From assembly GCA_009927165.1 (NCBI GenBank), contig RFNO01000038.1, positions 77,574 through 115,250 of the forward strand: DNA of 37,677 nt, read 5' to 3'. The stretch comes from Pseudomonadota bacterium (lineage in GTDB: Bacteria; Bdellovibrionota; FAC87; UBA2466). Below are positions 25,958-37,677 of the stretch, in pieces. The notes under the pieces were generated by a model. It ran no database searches. It was given only the letters and a program-made list of their open reading frames with translations, and was not told the DNA's origin. The translations under genes and the position numbers were made by a program. Numbering within the stretch: position 1 is the first letter of the stretch; every line of letters begins with the position of its first letter.

Positions 25958-26948
25958 GGACACCTTTCTGCCCACCGCTGAAAAATTGGAAACTTGGCTT
26001 GAGCTACAAGAGGGTGGCCCGATTACCGATTTGATTGAGCATTCACTTTTGGCTCCGCTCAATGAGTTTTTAAGTCGACCTGGAAAGAGCCTCCGAGGGA
26101 AGTTAGTCGAACTTGGGTTCCAATTGGTCAATCGAGAATCTGAAGGCAAAAAATGTCTGGCGGCCGCAGCACAGGTTTTGGAAACCATTCACGCAGCTTC
26201 TTTGGTAGTCGATGATATTCAAGATAATAGCGAATGGCGTCGGGGACAACCGACCCTCCATCGGACCCATGGAATCGCAGTAGCTTTGAATAGCGCTAAT
26301 TGGCTCTATTTTTGGCCCTTCGAGAAAATCCAGAGCTGGAAGATTGGAGCTGAGGAGAAAGCTCGTCTTAATTCTGCATGTAATCGAGCTCTGATCAAAG
26401 CCCATTCAGGGCAAGCATTAGATGTTGGAACTCCCATTCATAAACTAGAAAAGCCAAGGATTTATTCGGTCTGTCTCGCCTCTCTTGAACTCAAAACTGG
26501 TGCTCTTACTGCGTTGGCTCTCGAGCTCGGCGCAATCCTTGCGGGGGCTACTGAAAGTCAAATTCAATCTCTCTCCCGATTTGGACTTGAGTTTGGAATT
26601 GCACTTCAAATGTTTGATGATTTGGGGAATGTTGGACAAAAAAACCCTCCGGACTCAAAACGATTTGAGGATTTGAAATTGGGCCGTCCTTCCTGGATCT
26701 GGGCCACTGCTAGTCAAATACTGTCAGATAAAGAGTTTGAGGAGTTTTTGGAACTCGTCGCGATATTACCTGAAGAACGGGAGTTAAGTGCCTATTTTAA
26801 TAATGTGAAGTGGGTACAAGAATCCAAAGCTGGAGCCAGTGAATATTTAGATCGAGCTGTTTCTAAACTAACTAAGGAAAGTTGGAGTCAAACTGCATTG
26901 AATGATCTTTGTGCTTTAGTTGACCAACTTAAAAAAGCGTATGATTGA
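25947..26948 (+). CDS. crtE: Geranylgeranyl diphosphate synthase
   Basis: This trans-prenyltransferase would supply the C20 diphosphate for phytoene. The 333-residue protein has the first aspartate-rich motif DDIQD (residues 89-93) followed by NSEWRRGQPTLHRTHG, and LRGKLVELGFQL near residues 49-60. The second motif is DDLGN (224-228) where most enzymes have DDxxD, so the last aspartate is asparagine, and the nearby KLGRPSWIW replaces the usual EGKxT-like stretch. The DDIxDNSxxRRGxP pattern resembles GGPP synthases of the eukaryotic/fungal class as well as those of some deltaproteobacterial-type pigment clusters. Chain length cannot be read with certainty from this. It starts inside crtY and ends inside the next gene. 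Confidence 0.88.
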   Translation: MEFKDTFLPTAEKLETWLELQEGGPITDLIEHSLLAPLNEFLSRPGKSLRGKLVELGFQLVNRESEGKKCLAAAAQVLETIHAASLVVDDIQDNSEWRRGQPTLHRTHGIAVALNSANWLYFWPFEKIQSWKIGAEEKARLNSACNRALIKAHSGQALDVGTPIHKLEKPRIYSVCLASLELKTGALTALALELGAILAGATESQIQSLSRFGLEFGIALQMFDDLGNVGQKNPPDSKRFEDLKLGRPSWIWATASQILSDKEFEEFLELVAILPEERELSAYFNNVKWVQESKAGASEYLDRAVSKLTKESWSQTALNDLCALVDQLKKAYD

Positions 26949-29424
26949 TAAAAGTGCTGTTTTAATTGGTAGTGGATTTGGTGGTCTTGCCTGTGCCATC
27001 CGTCTTCAGTCGGCAGGAATCAAAGTTACATTGGTAGAGAAAAGGGATAAGCCCGGGGGCAGAGCATATGTTTATCAAGACCAAGGGTTTACGTTTGATG
27101 CTGGGCCTACGGTAATCACGGCTCCTCCTTGTCTCGAAGAGTTGTTCGAAATTTCCGGGAGAAATATCAAAGATTATGTTGAGCTACTTCCAGTCACTCC
27201 TTTGTACCGTCTTTTTTGGGAGGATGGAGTGGTGTTTGATTACACCAACGATTTGGAGAAGACTGTAGAACAAATAAAAAAGTTAAGGCCCCAAGATATT
27301 CAAGGCTATGAAGAGTTTTTGAAGTATACAGAAGAAGTATTTGAGGAAGGCTACACGAAATTGGCGCATGTTCCCTTTTTGGATTGGTGGTCCATGATTC
27401 GGGTAGCGCCACAGCTGATTCGACTGGAAGCCTATCGAACGGTCTACAGCATGGTTTCCAAGTTTATCAAGGAGCCGCATCTTAGACAGGCATTTAGTTT
27501 TCATTCACTCTTGGTAGGGGGAAATCCCTTCAGTACATCAAGCATCTATACGCTCATTCATTTTTTGGAGCGAAAATGGGGGGTTTATTTTCCTAGAGGA
27601 GGAACTGGAGCTTTAATTAAAGGACTAATTAATTTGTTCCAGGAGTTGGGCGGACACATACGGTACGATTCCGAGGTAAAAGAAATCCTAACGGAGAACG
27701 GACTCGCTCAAGGGGTACTGCTCTCAACGGGAGAAAAGATATTTTCCGACTTAGTGGTCAGCAATGCAGATGTTCATCACACTTATCATTCGCTGCTTAA
27801 ACGAGAACCACTGGCAGAGAGTAACCGCAAAAAGCTAGACCGAAGTCGCTACAGCATGTCGCTATTTGTGATTTATTTTGGCACCAATCGGAAGTTCCCT
27901 CAGTTTGAACATCACAATGTGGTTTTTGGGCCACGTTACAAAGAGCACTTGGCAGATATTTTTCAAAAGAGTCATTTAGCTGACGATTTCTCGTTGTATG
28001 TGCATCGGCCGACGGTCACTGATCCTTCTCTAGCACCTGAGGGCTGTGATGCGTTTTACGCTTTGTCTCCGGTTCCCCACCTCAGAGAGTCCACAGTAGA
28101 TTGGAAAATCGAAGGGCCTCGGTATGGCAAAAAGATTCTCGATTACCTGGAGAGTCGGTATTTGCCGGGGCTTAATGAATCAATCGTCACCCAAAGAATT
28201 TTTACTCCGCTTGATTTTCAGAAGGAGCTGAATGCTGCATGGGGGTCCGCATTTTCGCTTGAGCCCGTTTTGCATCAGAGCGCTTATTTTAGAACCCACA
28301 ATCGCGATGATAAGTTCTCAAATCTCTATTTTGTGGGAGCGGGCACTCATCCCGGAGCCGGAATTCCCGGTGTCGTGGGATCTGCGAAAGCAACTGCCCA
28401 ATTAATTCTTGATGATATAGCAGTGCGAGCAAAGAGCCTTCAAACCAATAACTCATCTTCAGTAACGGCTTCGAACGAAGCCAAGCCAGATACGGGGACC
28501 TTGGCTCAAAGTTGCCACGCCATCATTCAGAACGGGTCTAAAAGTTTTTCGTTGGCTAGCCGACTTTTTGAACCAGAAATTCGAGATGCTGCCTGTCTTC
28601 TGTATGGGTGGTGTCGTTATGTCGACGACGCAATTGATGAAAGCTCCGAAGGTAAAAAAGAGAGTTTAGTGCTTAATGAAATTAAACAAGAAACTGAGCT
28701 AGCGTTTCAGGGACGCCCCAGTCAGAAATTGGTATTTCAAGCATTAGCTGAAGTGGCAGCACAGCATCAGATCCCATCCTACTATGCGATGGAGCTACTC
28801 GAAGGCATGAAAATGGATTGTGAGGGAAAACGCTATCAAAGTTTTGAGGAGCTAAGTCTTTATTGCTATCGAGTTGCTAGCTGTGTAGGGCTCATGATGA
28901 GTCATGTCATGGGATTGTCCGATGAAGGGGCATTAAAGAACGCTTCTGATTTGGGAATGGCAATGCAGTTGACCAATATTGCCAGAGACATTGTTACGGA
29001 TGCCCAGAATGATCGGGTCTATTTGCCCCTGTCCTGGTTGGAAGAAGTGGCCATGAGTCCCGAGGATGTTCTAAATCCTGCGTATCGTTCTCAGGTGGCT
29101 TTTTTGGTCAAGCGGCTATTGAAACAGGCAGATCGCTATTACCAATCCGGAGTGAGAGGGTTGGTCTTCTTGCCATGGCGATCTTCTTGGGCAGTAGCTC
29201 TTGCCGCTTGTGTGTATCGACAAATTGGTCGGGAAGTAAAACGGCGTGGCGCTAGAGCTTGGGACTCTCGAACGGTGGTATCGGGGTGTCAAAAGTTTCA
29301 ATGCGCTTTAGAAGCGGCAGTGCTAGTTGTACGGACCCTTCCGTATCGACTTGTTAAGCCTTGGAGAAGAGTGAATCGTTTACAAATATGGAGACATCAG
29401 TGGATACCAGCCGAACTTTCTTAG
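26941..29424 (+). CDS. crtI-crtB: Phytoene desaturase-phytoene synthase fusion (CrtI-CrtB)
   Basis: A single 827-residue chain holds two successive carotenoid enzymes. The N-terminal part (about 1-495) is a CrtI-type desaturase with the FAD motif IGSGFGGLACA (G10, G12, G15) and the C-terminal CrtI signature VGAGTHPGAGIPGVVGSAKA. After a polar linker rich in S, T, N and A (about 496-519), a phytoene synthase domain begins: SFSLASRLF, the metal motif VDDAIDES (D562, D563, D566) and NIARDIVTDA (679-688) with RVYLP. It would condense two GGPP to phytoene and desaturate it to lycopene. The start is ATG 26941, overlapping crtE by 8 bases; a TTG at 26920 is in frame but unlikely. The orientation is unlike the fungal cyclase-synthase fusion. 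Confidence 0.93.
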   Translation: MIDKSAVLIGSGFGGLACAIRLQSAGIKVTLVEKRDKPGGRAYVYQDQGFTFDAGPTVITAPPCLEELFEISGRNIKDYVELLPVTPLYRLFWEDGVVFDYTNDLEKTVEQIKKLRPQDIQGYEEFLKYTEEVFEEGYTKLAHVPFLDWWSMIRVAPQLIRLEAYRTVYSMVSKFIKEPHLRQAFSFHSLLVGGNPFSTSSIYTLIHFLERKWGVYFPRGGTGALIKGLINLFQELGGHIRYDSEVKEILTENGLAQGVLLSTGEKIFSDLVVSNADVHHTYHSLLKREPLAESNRKKLDRSRYSMSLFVIYFGTNRKFPQFEHHNVVFGPRYKEHLADIFQKSHLADDFSLYVHRPTVTDPSLAPEGCDAFYALSPVPHLRESTVDWKIEGPRYGKKILDYLESRYLPGLNESIVTQRIFTPLDFQKELNAAWGSAFSLEPVLHQSAYFRTHNRDDKFSNLYFVGAGTHPGAGIPGVVGSAKATAQLILDDIAVRAKSLQTNNSSSVTASNEAKPDTGTLAQSCHAIIQNGSKSFSLASRLFEPEIRDAACLLYGWCRYVDDAIDESSEGKKESLVLNEIKQETELAFQGRPSQKLVFQALAEVAAQHQIPSYYAMELLEGMKMDCEGKRYQSFEELSLYCYRVASCVGLMMSHVMGLSDEGALKNASDLGMAMQLTNIARDIVTDAQNDRVYLPLSWLEEVAMSPEDVLNPAYRSQVAFLVKRLLKQADRYYQSGVRGLVFLPWRSSWAVALAACVYRQIGREVKRRGARAWDSRTVVSGCQKFQCALEAAVLVVRTLPYRLVKPWRRVNRLQIWRHQWIPAELS

Positions 29425-32654: not shown

Positions 32655-32707
32655 TGGTACGTGAGTGGGAAGGCGTCACTTTAAACAGTACGTTGATAGG
32701 AGCCTTT

Positions 32708-34441
32708 ATGAAGTTGTTCCCACTTAACCAAACGGGCAGCGCTCTCGTTCTTGGCGTTATGGCCGGCTTAGTCGGAGTAATGGGTTCAGTCGGAGCAGCC
32801 CTCCTCTTAAAATCTTATCTACGCCAGAATAGTCAAACCGGACAAGCCGTGCAGGCGAGCGGTAGTGATCTAGTGGGTTTGGATTATCTATCGGGTAAAT
32901 TTAAATTTAAAAAATCTGGAGATGGCTCACGTGTTATTGGAAAGCCCAGCTGGTTTATTGATCCTTACCCTTCAGCTCAGACGCTGATTCAATCCTCTGT
33001 CCAACCTGGCCCTGGAATAATTAAAATACCGGGTCGAGTGGTGGCTTTTGACGTGGCAAGTGCAACCCAGGAATTGGTTCCCAAGTGGTCCATACCGGGC
33101 GTGAAAAAGGGAATGAAATGTCTTCCGCTAGACAAACCTGAAATTTCGTTCGCAAAAAAGCTACCCACCGAGGCGTGCGCCCCTGATAAAAATCATCCGA
33201 TTCTTGAGTACGTAATCGATGAGGGAAATCTGGATTCTGTGGAAAAAAACTCTGGAACTACAGCGTTTGTTAATACAAAAAATCTCATGAAAATGAGTCA
33301 GGACAAAACCGTATTAAAAAGTCTTTTAAATGGAGGAGGGGTTCCGGTTCAGGTCGAATCCATGGCCGCTGGGGCAGTTCAGTTTCGGGCGCTTCATGCA
33401 CACAAAAGATATCCGCAGGCTTTGGGAACCGTTGAAGTTCAAATGGGCAACACTATCGCTGAAATACCAGTAGAGCTTCCTCCGAATCCGAAGTGTCAGA
33501 TACGGTTACTTTCTCCCATTCCGCGACAAGTGGGAATTGATCCCAGTTTTGAACCCGGAACCGATGTGCTCTTCGCTTTAAGCACGGATAGCATCGCTTT
33601 GAGTGCCCAAAGTTCAGCTGATGGAGGGGTTCACATACAAACAGTGAACGTGTCTTCGCAACAGAGCGTGGGCAACTTTGGAAGGTTTCAGCAGATTGCG
33701 ACCTTTTCACTTAAAGCCCCTGATCGACCGCTACCGATTTTGCGTCGTTCGGACACAACAGTGGCCTGGTTTCCCAAAGTTTTTGTCCAAGGGGTGACAG
33801 GAAATGCTACCTCAAACTGTACCTTGGAAGTTCCAGTTCATGCTCCGCCTCCTCCGATTTGTACACTTTCCCCGGAGAATGCTCAGATTCTAAGAGGACA
33901 GAGCACAAACATGATTTTGGATTGCACTAATCCCAATGGTGGGGCGGTCGTCTCAGCGACTATTGCTGGACAAGCAGTACCAGCTAATTTTCCGATAACC
34001 AAAAAAGCGCAGCTCCCATACACACGTACTGAAGTGCGAAACAAAGAAAAAATCGTGGCTGTGGTTCAGGGGATTCTCGATACGATTGAAGTGGTTGCAT
34101 GGCTTGGGGAGGTTTGTCCATTCAACGATCCTAACTACTCTGCGCAATTATTGAAAGCCCGACAGTGGCTCAATATCCGGAATATTGTCACTGAAGAAAA
34201 AGACCTTGTAACCCCCTTCAAGAATGCGGATCCCCTTTTTTTCACTCGTAGTCCGACTGCCAAGGTAGTGTCCATGTCTAGCTTGGAAGTTCCTCTGGAA
34301 TTCATAACAGAAGGAGTGAGCCTGACCAAGGATCCAGGATTGAAGCGATTTGGAATTGAGCCGCGAGGGGGCGGAATCAATTGTCGATGGACTGTTGAGT
34401 TTGATCCGACGAACGCCAATCTAACGCGATATAATTTGTAA
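32708..34441 (+). CDS. Large exported protein with prepilin-like N-terminus, unknown function
   Basis: I take ATG 32708, which has AGGAG at an ideal distance; an upstream GTG at 32654 adds 18 residues of no clear character. The 577-residue product begins MKLFPLNQTG then a hydrophobic helix starting SALVLGVMAGLVGVMG, the layout of PilX-type or class III prepilins: a G before the helix but no glutamate at position 5. The long remainder (from about residue 45) has many segments of beta type, an internal C-x-L segment repeated as CQIRLLSP, CTLEVPV and CTLSPE, and an end at TRYNL. It stops at TAA 34439-34441 with the next gene's ATG directly after, in the same frame, so this may be the first half of one interrupted protein. 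Confidence 0.65.
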   Translation: MKLFPLNQTGSALVLGVMAGLVGVMGSVGAALLLKSYLRQNSQTGQAVQASGSDLVGLDYLSGKFKFKKSGDGSRVIGKPSWFIDPYPSAQTLIQSSVQPGPGIIKIPGRVVAFDVASATQELVPKWSIPGVKKGMKCLPLDKPEISFAKKLPTEACAPDKNHPILEYVIDEGNLDSVEKNSGTTAFVNTKNLMKMSQDKTVLKSLLNGGGVPVQVESMAAGAVQFRALHAHKRYPQALGTVEVQMGNTIAEIPVELPPNPKCQIRLLSPIPRQVGIDPSFEPGTDVLFALSTDSIALSAQSSADGGVHIQTVNVSSQQSVGNFGRFQQIATFSLKAPDRPLPILRRSDTTVAWFPKVFVQGVTGNATSNCTLEVPVHAPPPPICTLSPENAQILRGQSTNMILDCTNPNGGAVVSATIAGQAVPANFPITKKAQLPYTRTEVRNKEKIVAVVQGILDTIEVVAWLGEVCPFNDPNYSAQLLKARQWLNIRNIVTEEKDLVTPFKNADPLFFTRSPTAKVVSMSSLEVPLEFITEGVSLTKDPGLKRFGIEPRGGGINCRWTVEFDPTNANLTRYNL

Positions 34442-35617
34442 ATGAATGCATATGCTCAATTAAATAGAACCTCAACTGTTTTAAATAGCGGTGGCAGAAG
34501 ATCTCCGTTTCGGTTACCCAGCAATACGGCCGTTAATCAATACCGGGAGTTGAGTCGCCTCTATGATCTGCAAGTGAGTAAGGAAACTGGAAAAGTGGTG
34601 GTTACGGAACAAGTTAGATATCAAAAGTTAAAAAAGGAAAATCAAACAGTACAGCTCGGAAACACGTCTCGAACGGTATCTGTTTGGGTTGAGGATGGAG
34701 ATCCCCTCATTAATACGCAGGACTTTTGGGTCTGGGGGAGTGCCAAGAATCCCAACATGCCTGAAACTCGTTCACTCGTTCTATCTGGGACAGGAGAAGT
34801 GTATCTGTGGAGTTCACTGGGAATCCGTCAACTCTTGATTGGAGCGAAACGGGGATGTTCAGATCCACCCAATGAACGTTACTACGCCGGATCTGAAACA
34901 GTGTTCAATACTGGAAACCTAGCCCTCGGAGAAATGGATAGAAGCAGTGGATCTTGCAAACCGAATCGTTTTTGTATGTATACCGGACAATATCAGCGAG
35001 CCACATTACCGACGGGCGATCAGCATCGAATTAATCCCGGATGGACTTATCAGAATCAAACTTATGATTACGCGTTGGATGTTATTTATGGAGGAGAAGG
35101 TTACTGGGTGGAAGTGGGACCCGCCACTGAAAAAACGTGCAGTATCCAGCGAGCAAGGCTTCGGCAGGGGGGATGTTTCAGTGCAGACACCCCTATTTTA
35201 ATGGCGGACGGTAGCCAGAAAAAAGTGTCTTTGATTGCCGAGAATGATTATGTATACAACCCGCATTACCAGACGGGTGTGAGAGTCAAATCATTAGTAA
35301 AGGGACCGGAAAAGAAATCGCTCTTCGAAGTATGGCTGGGGACGCAACAAGTGAAAGTCACAGAAGATCATCCGTTCTTTACCAACAGGGGATGGCTACA
35401 GGCACAGGAATTAAAAGAGGGGGATGTTCTTTTAGGTGAAGGCAGTGGAAAACTGGTTCAACAAGTAAGAAAACTTAGTTATGAAGGCCCCCAAGATGTT
35501 TGGAATTTTGAGCTCGATACCGAGGATCCCTTGGCGCATCTTGTTGTTGCGAATGGAATTCCCACAGGCGATCTGACGACTCAGCTCAAGCTCAAAAAAC
35601 AACGTGCTTTGCCATGA
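34442..35617 (+). CDS. Protein with C-terminal Hint (hedgehog/intein) domain
   Basis: The 391-residue product has an N-terminal part without recognisable domain (1-244), containing several cysteines, and a Hint domain from C245 to about 375. Hint features are the nucleophile C245 in GGCFSADTPIL, the T307-x-x-H310 block (TEDHPFF), WLQAQELKEGDV, and a C-terminal VVANGIP strand. The final HN of inteins is absent: the chain reads NGIPTGDL, and no extein continues far. N-terminal cleavage at C245, as in hedgehog or bacterial intein-like proteins, is therefore more likely than splicing. No ribosome site precedes the ATG, which follows the previous gene's TAA without a gap; translation may depend on reinitiation or read-through. 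The stop overlaps the next ATG as ATGA. Confidence 0.8.
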   Translation: MNAYAQLNRTSTVLNSGGRRSPFRLPSNTAVNQYRELSRLYDLQVSKETGKVVVTEQVRYQKLKKENQTVQLGNTSRTVSVWVEDGDPLINTQDFWVWGSAKNPNMPETRSLVLSGTGEVYLWSSLGIRQLLIGAKRGCSDPPNERYYAGSETVFNTGNLALGEMDRSSGSCKPNRFCMYTGQYQRATLPTGDQHRINPGWTYQNQTYDYALDVIYGGEGYWVEVGPATEKTCSIQRARLRQGGCFSADTPILMADGSQKKVSLIAENDYVYNPHYQTGVRVKSLVKGPEKKSLFEVWLGTQQVKVTEDHPFFTNRGWLQAQELKEGDVLLGEGSGKLVQQVRKLSYEGPQDVWNFELDTEDPLAHLVVANGIPTGDLTTQLKLKKQRALP

Positions 35618-36504
35618 AGCTACTGAATATCACAATCATTGTTGCTTTGTGTGCCATTTTTATTTTCTTTTGGGTAAAAACGGATAGTTTCGCTCCCCCC
35701 AAGCTGGGAGCAATGGTGGAAGAGGAACAGGTGCGAATTTTATCTCCCGAGGAAGCCAAACGAAACCAATCTCATTCAGTTATGCATTCCAGTCGCCAGA
35801 TGGAAGCAGTTCAATGGGATAACACTCAGAGAAGCCTGGGACTTGCTACGTTTGCCATCCCGGTCACCAATCAGGTGGCTTCTATCCAATTGGAAATAAC
35901 GACACAAGGGTACTGTTTTCCCGGAGATGCAAATGCCATTGCCATGGAACTTTCAAATTTTCCATCCCACAAAGTGATTGCCACTTTGGAACCCCTCTCC
36001 GGTAAGAGCCCGTCTGGCTATTGGGTTTTGCCGAAAAGCTTTTTTACCCAAGGAAGAGCCGAACATCGATTTGAACTACCCGTCTCCCACGAACCCGTTC
36101 AATACGGATTTTATTTGTGTACTACAGAGGGAAGCGATCAAAGTTGTCGTCAGAAAAAAGTGGTTGATCTGAATGATGTTTTTACAGAGCACATTCAAAA
36201 ACTACCTCAGGCCGGCAAAGAATTGAGAACACTTTTTTTTCAATATTTGTTTTTGGACGATCGCGGGTTTACCACCTTTGTTGATATTCCGCTGGGGGAG
36301 CAAAAGTTTCAGCAGCTGAAAAGCTATTTAAAACAACGCAGTACTTCGAAAAATGATTTGGATAATGCAGTGGACATGAGTCAAAGCAACATAAAGACCC
36401 TGCAGTCGCTGCCGTTTCAGTTTGATGGAACGACTATTAAGGTTGCATTGCCAGAATACCAACCCCAAATGTGTGGAAACTCTCATCAGAGGGAAGGGAA
36501 ATGA
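35614..36504 (+). CDS. Membrane-anchored protein of unknown function in the pilin-Hint cluster
   Basis: The 296-residue product has a short basic start and one N-terminal helix (ITIIVALCAIFIFFWV, about residues 6-21) followed by a polar exported domain. No family is recognised. Cysteines are few, with C in LEITTQGYCF, YLCTTEG and CRQKK that could pair. The sequence SIQLEITTQGYCFPGDA and ELPVSHEPVQYGFYLCT suggest a beta sandwich, which is inference. The ATG overlaps the Hint gene stop as ATGA, so it is co-translated with it, and the next gene begins six bases after its stop. It may be a pilus assembly partner or an anchor for the Hint protein's released domain. Confidence 0.68.
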   Translation: MKLLNITIIVALCAIFIFFWVKTDSFAPPKLGAMVEEEQVRILSPEEAKRNQSHSVMHSSRQMEAVQWDNTQRSLGLATFAIPVTNQVASIQLEITTQGYCFPGDANAIAMELSNFPSHKVIATLEPLSGKSPSGYWVLPKSFFTQGRAEHRFELPVSHEPVQYGFYLCTTEGSDQSCRQKKVVDLNDVFTEHIQKLPQAGKELRTLFFQYLFLDDRGFTTFVDIPLGEQKFQQLKSYLKQRSTSKNDLDNAVDMSQSNIKTLQSLPFQFDGTTIKVALPEYQPQMCGNSHQREGK

Positions 36505-36510
36505 GAACCC

Positions 36511-37305
36511 ATGAAGTTAAGAAACGGTCAGCTTAATTCCGTCGGCTTCTCCCTGGTGGAACTATCAGTAGTTACTCTCGTGCTGGCAATTGTCGGGGTA
36601 GGGAGTAGCACTGTTTTCATCAATATTTTGAAGAACAAGGTCAGTTCAGAGGCTAAATTGGGGGTGATTTATTACCAAGATGCGGTAGTCGAGACACTCG
36701 CCCGAGAAGTTACCCAATTGGCGAAACTGCCTGATCCCGTGGCACTATCTTCAAGTGTCATCCAGCCCATTTATGATACGAGAGTGTGGTCAGGTTTGTT
36801 TGCTAATCCGAGTCTTCCAGGAGGAACTGGAAAAGTTGAACTGATTGTTAGGACACTCCCCGCAAATCTGGCTGCATTCAGGAATAAGCTGGACCTTAAC
36901 GTGAGCGAGCAGAGTAGTTTTAACCAGGCTCTAGGGGATTGTTTAATGGGTAAGCCAGTAATTCCTAGAGATGATACCGACCAAGGCAACTACATGTTCT
37001 GTGTGACGGTTAGCCGATCGGGAAAAATCGGAGCTGCGGTTGATTTTTTAAATTCGGAAGCAAATCTTATCGAAGTGAGGGCTTCTCTTTTAAGTAAAAT
37101 ATTAGATCATCGAACTAAAATCTTTGGTCCGTTTCTGACTGTGCCGGCATTTTGGTCAGCCGGAATAGATTTCCAGCAAATAGACCTCACTTATCGGATT
37201 TTATGGAAAACTGGGAATGAGCTTGCGCCTAGTGGAAAATTTAAAAATAGTGGGTTTTACGAATTAACAGGCGAAAAAATGGTGAACATTAATGAAATGC
37301 GTTGA
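36511..37305 (+). CDS. Type IV prepilin-like protein
   Basis: The 264-residue product carries a classical prepilin peptidase site: a 12-residue leader ending in G12, then FSLVELSVV with the conserved glutamate five residues after the cut (E17), and a hydrophobic helix to about residue 35. It would be processed by a PilD-type peptidase and insert in a pilus or pseudopilus. The C-terminal globular domain is large for a major pilin, suggesting a minor pilin. Two cysteines in the C-terminal half (DCLMGKP and MFCVTVS) could form a disulfide loop. Purines GGGAAGGGAAA lie upstream but at long spacing. The next prepilin begins inside its last codons. Confidence 0.88.
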   Translation: MKLRNGQLNSVGFSLVELSVVTLVLAIVGVGSSTVFINILKNKVSSEAKLGVIYYQDAVVETLAREVTQLAKLPDPVALSSSVIQPIYDTRVWSGLFANPSLPGGTGKVELIVRTLPANLAAFRNKLDLNVSEQSSFNQALGDCLMGKPVIPRDDTDQGNYMFCVTVSRSGKIGAAVDFLNSEANLIEVRASLLSKILDHRTKIFGPFLTVPAFWSAGIDFQQIDLTYRILWKTGNELAPSGKFKNSGFYELTGEKMVNINEMR

Positions 37306-37677
37306 TTCTTTTTTTTCTCGAAAGGGGGTCACTCTCGTTGAGCTCATGATTTCAGTTGCCGTCATCGGTATTGTTGTTTTGACCGCTGGGCATTATTTCA
37401 GCGAAAGCCAAATGCCTAACTTAAGAATCAGCAACGTGGTGAGCGGGGATGCCTTGGCTCGTGAGTTTTTTAACCTTCAAAAAAAACGATTGTTATCGAG
37501 CACAGATATGGTTCCGACAGTTTTCAGCAATCCCGTTAATGCGACTACTTTTTCAGGAGCGACCATTAGTTTTAATAACGTGGCAGGCACTGGGGTTGGG
37601 AGAGTCAGCACAACTTGTGTGGATCTGCCTGGGGGAATTGCACCCTTAGAAGATAATGCCCTCAATGAGATAAATGC
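37292..37677 (+). CDS. Second type IV prepilin-like protein (3' end outside window)
   Basis: The frame opens at ATG 37292 and stays open to the window end, giving 128 residues of a longer protein. The leader is 12 residues (MKCVDSFFSRKG), then VTLVELMIS with the glutamate five residues after the cut, and a helix continuing VAVIGIVVLTAGHYF. The following residues include a long helix extension and then SGATISFNNVAGTGVG, as in pilin heads. It overlaps the previous prepilin gene by 14 bases, so the operon continues to the right of the window. Confidence 0.85.
   Translation, partial: MKCVDSFFSRKGVTLVELMISVAVIGIVVLTAGHYFSESQMPNLRISNVVSGDALAREFFNLQKKRLLSSTDMVPTVFSNPVNATTFSGATISFNNVAGTGVGRVSTTCVDLPGGIAPLEDNALNEIN

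Follow-up and report, generated by a model that had tools for sequence, protein, structure and literature searches.

The gene cluster located at positions 32708–37677 of the window, by which we mean the whole analyzed stretch of 37,677 nucleotides, encodes, as read from sequence, a single large pilin precursor whose C-terminus is formed by a Hint domain, together with a membrane-anchored partner and two small prepilins. The gene anatomy and the co-conservation of this set are well supported. As for its role, we lean toward a scenario in which the cassette is a stand-alone and exchangeable minor-pilin tip module, whose large subunit would be C-terminally auto-processed by its own Hint domain, a cleavage that, like its purpose, we infer.

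All genes of the cluster run in the same direction on the forward strand (ORF listing), and the window itself forms the 37,677-base end of a contig from a 2.47-Mb draft genome of the Bdellovibrionota-like group. Between adjacent genes there are overlaps of 4 and 14 nt and one gap of 6 nt; a promoter/terminator scan and a repeat search returned nothing above chance expectation. The precursor (N-terminal part, 32708–34441; C-terminal part, 34442–35617) is followed by the transmembrane (TM) partner (296 aa, one N-terminal TM helix; 35614–36504), minor pilin A (264 aa; 36511–37305), and minor pilin B (37292–37677), which is cut off at the contig end; this is also the end of the window, and downstream sequence is absent for this genome. 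The initial annotation had described five co-directional genes that overlap or nearly touch. Its account of direction, spacing, prepilin-like N-terminus, Hint domain, TM protein, and two prepilins stands, but its division of the large protein and the Hint protein into two genes, with Hint as a separate component, has to be replaced by one gene whose predicted product ends in Hint.

A single codon, TAA (34439–34441), stands between the two parts of the precursor, which are read in the same frame. The ATG at 32708 is preceded, 5 nt upstream, by a Shine-Dalgarno-like AGGAG (32698–32702), and the protein begins with the leader MKLFPLNQTG followed by SALVLGVMAGLVGVMGSVGAALLL, a prepilin motif that lacks Glu5, resembles those of GspK/PilX, and is not detected by Pfam. 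By using the Hint part as a query against 97 related genomes, we found open frames of about 600–1100 aa within the same family; in the extracted loci both halves form one uninterrupted ORF (about 620–1100 aa), in the order prepilin-like N-terminal helix, variable beta-rich head, and C-terminal Hint. We identified 12 large Hint-pilin genes, distributed in seven genomes. A separate Hint protein, produced by re-initiation at 34442 and acting in trans on the pilins, is conceivable because an ATG directly follows the TAA and both halves are otherwise open. We nevertheless regard it as improbable: nearly all relatives have a single ORF, the stops of homologs lie at other places, the sequence upstream of 34442 reads without any Shine-Dalgarno-like element, and the Hint half contains neither signal peptide nor TM helix, so that it would remain in the cytoplasm.

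The in-frame TAA itself deserves attention. Three of the 12 large genes (those of the window and of loci L032 and L036) carry exactly one TAA in an otherwise intact frame, and in two of these three the homologous sequence goes on in frame after it. That of the window sits within a head insertion missing from its relatives. At L033, a further TAA lies directly ahead of the prepilin motif. Single stops in intact frames could be taken as regulatory, with termination giving a short product that lacks Hint and read-through giving one that includes it. Such regulation of the large gene by read-through is possible but unsupported, and we give it little credence, because the three positions are unrelated (about residue 127, 535, and 577), their flanks share no common context, and TAA is an ordinary terminator, ending 11 of the 27 neighboring window genes. 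This last observation also led us to reject a reassignment of the stop codon, and the differing positions led us to reject programmed read-through at a conserved site. We read the three stops as nonsense alleles of a fast-evolving surface gene or as metagenome-assembly errors. Likewise, the window allele is probably interrupted by a nonsense mutation or a sequence error and, unless the latter applies, probably makes no full precursor.

The Hint domain extends from 35174 to 35575, as delimited by alignments, Pfam, and the Hint fold of a homolog model. Its first residue, Cys1 (35174–35176), directly follows Gly-Gly; a TEDH block provides Thr (35360–35362) and His (35369–35371), and a later His is found at 35537–35539. 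Alignments show that Cys1, TxxH, and the later His are conserved, Cys1 and TxxH being retained by every full member, in two taxonomic families. By its fold, its profile match, and the Cys1 and TxxH needed for an N-S acyl shift, the domain is a member of the HINT superfamily. On the other side of the domain, Gly-Asp (35567–35572) replaces His-Asn, as judged from its alignment with the His-Asn in which certain Hint proteins elsewhere in the phylum end; in agreement, NCBIfam recognized the N-terminal intein motif of the domain and not the C-terminal one. The model of the L038 homolog contains a Hint fold matching BIL and intein structures with TM-scores of 0.7–0.85 of the target (0.78 for Tetrahymena BIL2 and 0.84 for Clostridium BIL), and it also matches the Hedgehog structure 6tyy. 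Moreover, the Hint domains of the window and of G002 differ by an excess of third-position changes, which indicates purifying selection.

Because His-Asn is replaced by Gly-Asp, splicing is not expected, and the motifs lead us instead to expect cleavage or transfer at the Gly-Gly/Cys1 junction (GG/C). This combination recalls B-type BIL domains, which possess the intein motifs except the C-terminal one (reviewed in PMC7765530). Here too, the N-terminal motifs are kept, the C-terminal one is lost, N-terminal cleavage would be expected, and the host protein is variable, but the host in the present case is a pilin accompanied by dedicated partners that are pilins as well. The present Hint thus appears, from its motifs, to fit the B-type BIL definition, and it lacks the C-terminal His-Asn that serves as a criterion for inteins and A-type BIL domains. 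The Hog domain of Hedgehog proteins performs only the N-S acyl shift, by which the N-terminal domain is passed to a nucleophile (PMC7664689). By analogy with this C-terminal Hint, an N-S acyl shift alone could suffice in the present protein, which differs from Hog in lacking a sterol-recognition region and in having a tail of only 13–20 aa.

This tail is also informative about two other explanations. In the window it consists of 13 aa (35576–35614) and ends, like most relatives, with Leu-Pro; among all members 13–20 residues follow Hint, with a conserved GDLxTQ...LP. A polymorphic-toxin arrangement, in which Hint would release a C-terminal toxin, is brought to mind by the best Pfam match of the Hint part, the pretoxin Hint family PT-HINT (33.0 bits for a cut-off of 27.7). 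It is nonetheless very hard to sustain: such a short extension leaves no toxin to be released, the His-Asn required for C-terminal release is Gly-Asp here, and the next genes encode the TM protein and prepilins and nothing immunity-like. We take more seriously, while still considering it unlikely, a catalytically silent Hint that is kept at the pilus tip for a structural role or for binding. The loss of the C-terminal splice residues fits this explanation, as does the conserved tail, which suggests that the C-terminus could matter in the mature protein; on the other hand, the retention of Cys1 and TxxH by all full members of two families argues against it.

Upstream of Hint, the L038 model (mean pLDDT 75) displays a 53-residue N-terminal helix (residues 15–67, where pLDDT is low, about 45–83) and then a chain of beta-rich domains leading to Hint. 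Long-range Foldseek matches of this model to complement proteins came with very large rmsd values and point only to repeated beta-sandwiches; in the G002 protein, the head matched a bulb lectin below the threshold. Pilin-like helix, beta-rich head, Hint fold, and weak lectin match fit the proposal of the initial annotation that the cluster makes an exported tip or adhesin with a self-processing Hint. Its further suggestion that self-cleavage releases the head is not supported by the domain order: as the large pilin itself ends in Hint, the predicted cut at GG/C would remove Hint and leave the head on the pilus, or hand the C-terminus of the pilin to a nucleophile.

The head is the variable part of the precursor, with pairwise identities mostly of 21–45% and a maximum of 62% between two copies of one genome, against mostly 50–70% for Hint. 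In G007 (loci L039, L040, L041, and L042), a run of 141 bases where the Hint region begins is identical between two large genes whose heads clearly differ, and it is here that the assembly broke. This identical stretch suggests an exchange or shuffling of heads, or gene conversion of the 3' end. The head is probably one of a diverse repertoire present in several copies, and its likely targets are surfaces or other cells.

In relatives, the large gene is followed by genes for a single-TM protein of ~295 aa, pilin A, and the classical prepilin B, in this order. In the model of the TM partner (pLDDT 80), the TM helix is accompanied by a coiled-coil helix and by a beta-sandwich-like domain bearing conserved cysteines; a structure search with this model found no significant match in the PDB. 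Pilin A of the window has the motif GFSLVELSVV, whose score falls just below the cut-off (15.7 vs 16.3), and its counterparts in most relatives start with GN-A/I, lack Glu5, and are not found by Pfam. The motif of pilin B (GVTLVELMIS) is recognized by Pfam N_methyl (27.3, cut-off 21.2) and also exceeds the NCBIfam cut-off.

We addressed the distribution of the cassette by searching 369 genomes of the phylum with one profile for the TM protein and another for Hint, Hint matches above 90 bits being considered strong. The TM-protein family was present in seven genomes, and strong Hint matches occurred in the identical seven (hypergeometric probability 6e-15, a value that ignores shared ancestry and is too optimistic because six of the seven genomes belong to one family). 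The seventh, G146, belongs to another family and contains all four genes, with a divergent large gene and the same layout as L035. Wherever the locus is complete, prepilins adjoin the TM and Hint genes. The cassette often occurs in several copies per genome, with neighbors that differ between loci. Exceptions to the complete set are L036 and L042, where the large gene stands alone, and G002, where the partners are found on other short contigs than the large gene. The names of samples, such as Lanier and Offshore, lead us to read the group as a freshwater one.

These data answer the two checks proposed with the initial annotation. Conserved synteny is borne out by the joint presence of TM protein and strong Hint in the same seven genomes, with prepilins alongside in complete loci. 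As for further genes downstream, the extracted loci of relatives show no pilus-assembly genes after the cassette, whose neighbors vary from locus to locus. The cassette also lies outside any known pilus or secretion operon.

The survey also revealed other Hint loci. A second conserved Hint cassette occurs in Bdellovibrionota (L043, L044, L061, L064, L065, L069, and L110), encoding a ~300-aa Hint protein that is secreted, a ~630–714-aa lipoprotein resembling subtilases, a ~220-aa TM protein, and a ~940-aa LRR/Kelch protein. Many of the other GD-type Hint proteins of the phylum that we inspected belong to this second cassette, and its Hint aligns with the window-type Hint across the whole domain. 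We found no support for homology between the TM partner and the TM protein of the second cassette (hhalign probability 3.4%, and 0.3% for G041). A regular-expression scan revealed only one clear case of a prepilin gene near these other Hint loci, and it is non-adjacent: at L066 (G041), a Hint gene and a small TM gene lie ~1.3 kb from a divergent pilin-like pair, with an unrelated gene in between. At L104 (G141), three genes for different Hint proteins stand in tandem within 6 kb of one contig. Elsewhere in the window, an ORF of 834 aa (26920–29424) is a fusion of a CrtI-like phytoene desaturase (amine oxidoreductase family) and a CrtB-like phytoene synthase, and adjoins genes for a lycopene cyclase and a polyprenyl synthase.

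The source genome carries PilB-PilT-PilC genes on one contig and, on another, a full operon for a type II secretion system (T2SS) that includes a G–K set of pseudopilins (genes named from ORF sequences and the T2SSE profile), so that the cassette can serve an existing machine as an accessory set. In combining small prepilins with a large K-like pilin, it resembles both the minor pilin/PilY1 tips of type IVa pili and the GspH-I-J-K tip of T2SS. It differs from the latter in lying outside the T2SS operon of the source genome, and from the former in that no PilY1 match was obtained in 20 relatives, a result to be read with the fact that control genomes gave no match either. Another parallel is provided by the Kil Tips KilL, KilM, and KilN of Myxococcus xanthus, minor-pilin clusters proposed to act as exchangeable fiber tips (Nat Commun 2025, PMC12075869). 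These are likewise paralogous and scattered clusters with one large pilin bearing a variable distal domain, in a predator. However, they are TadE/F/G-like whereas Pfam scans of the present proteins gave no TadE/TadG match, the text of PMC12075869 mentions neither Hint nor intein, and the TM partner is an additional component of the present cassette.

The scenario that we favor, an exchangeable tip with an auto-processed large subunit, may proceed as follows. Prepilin peptidase would process the large pilin along with both small prepilins, which together would prime or cap the fiber of an existing type IV pilus, Tad-like, or T2SS machinery. After export, Hint would perform the N-S acyl shift at GG/C, the thioester would be resolved by water or another nucleophile, and Hint would depart; the C-terminus of the head would thereby be freed or covalently joined to something. 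The TM partner would act in this step as a periplasmic chaperone, an anchor, or an acceptor. A bolder and rather doubtful version is a self-ligating tip, in which the C-terminal Hint would, in a Hedgehog-like manner, make a thioester and couple the adhesin covalently to an acceptor; we read the TM partner, a neighboring pilin, the envelope, and the target cell as candidate acceptors.

Hint domains are well known, as are minor-pilin tip complexes, and the phylum includes predators that use pili against prey. Our searches of the open literature on Hint in connection with pilins, prepilins, and Bdellovibrio brought to light no account of a pilin carrying a fused Hint domain. With its few, conserved genes and its conserved Cys1, the proposed tip module is directly testable and, if its Hint domain is active, it would represent a new way for a fiber tip to mature or to be fixed covalently.
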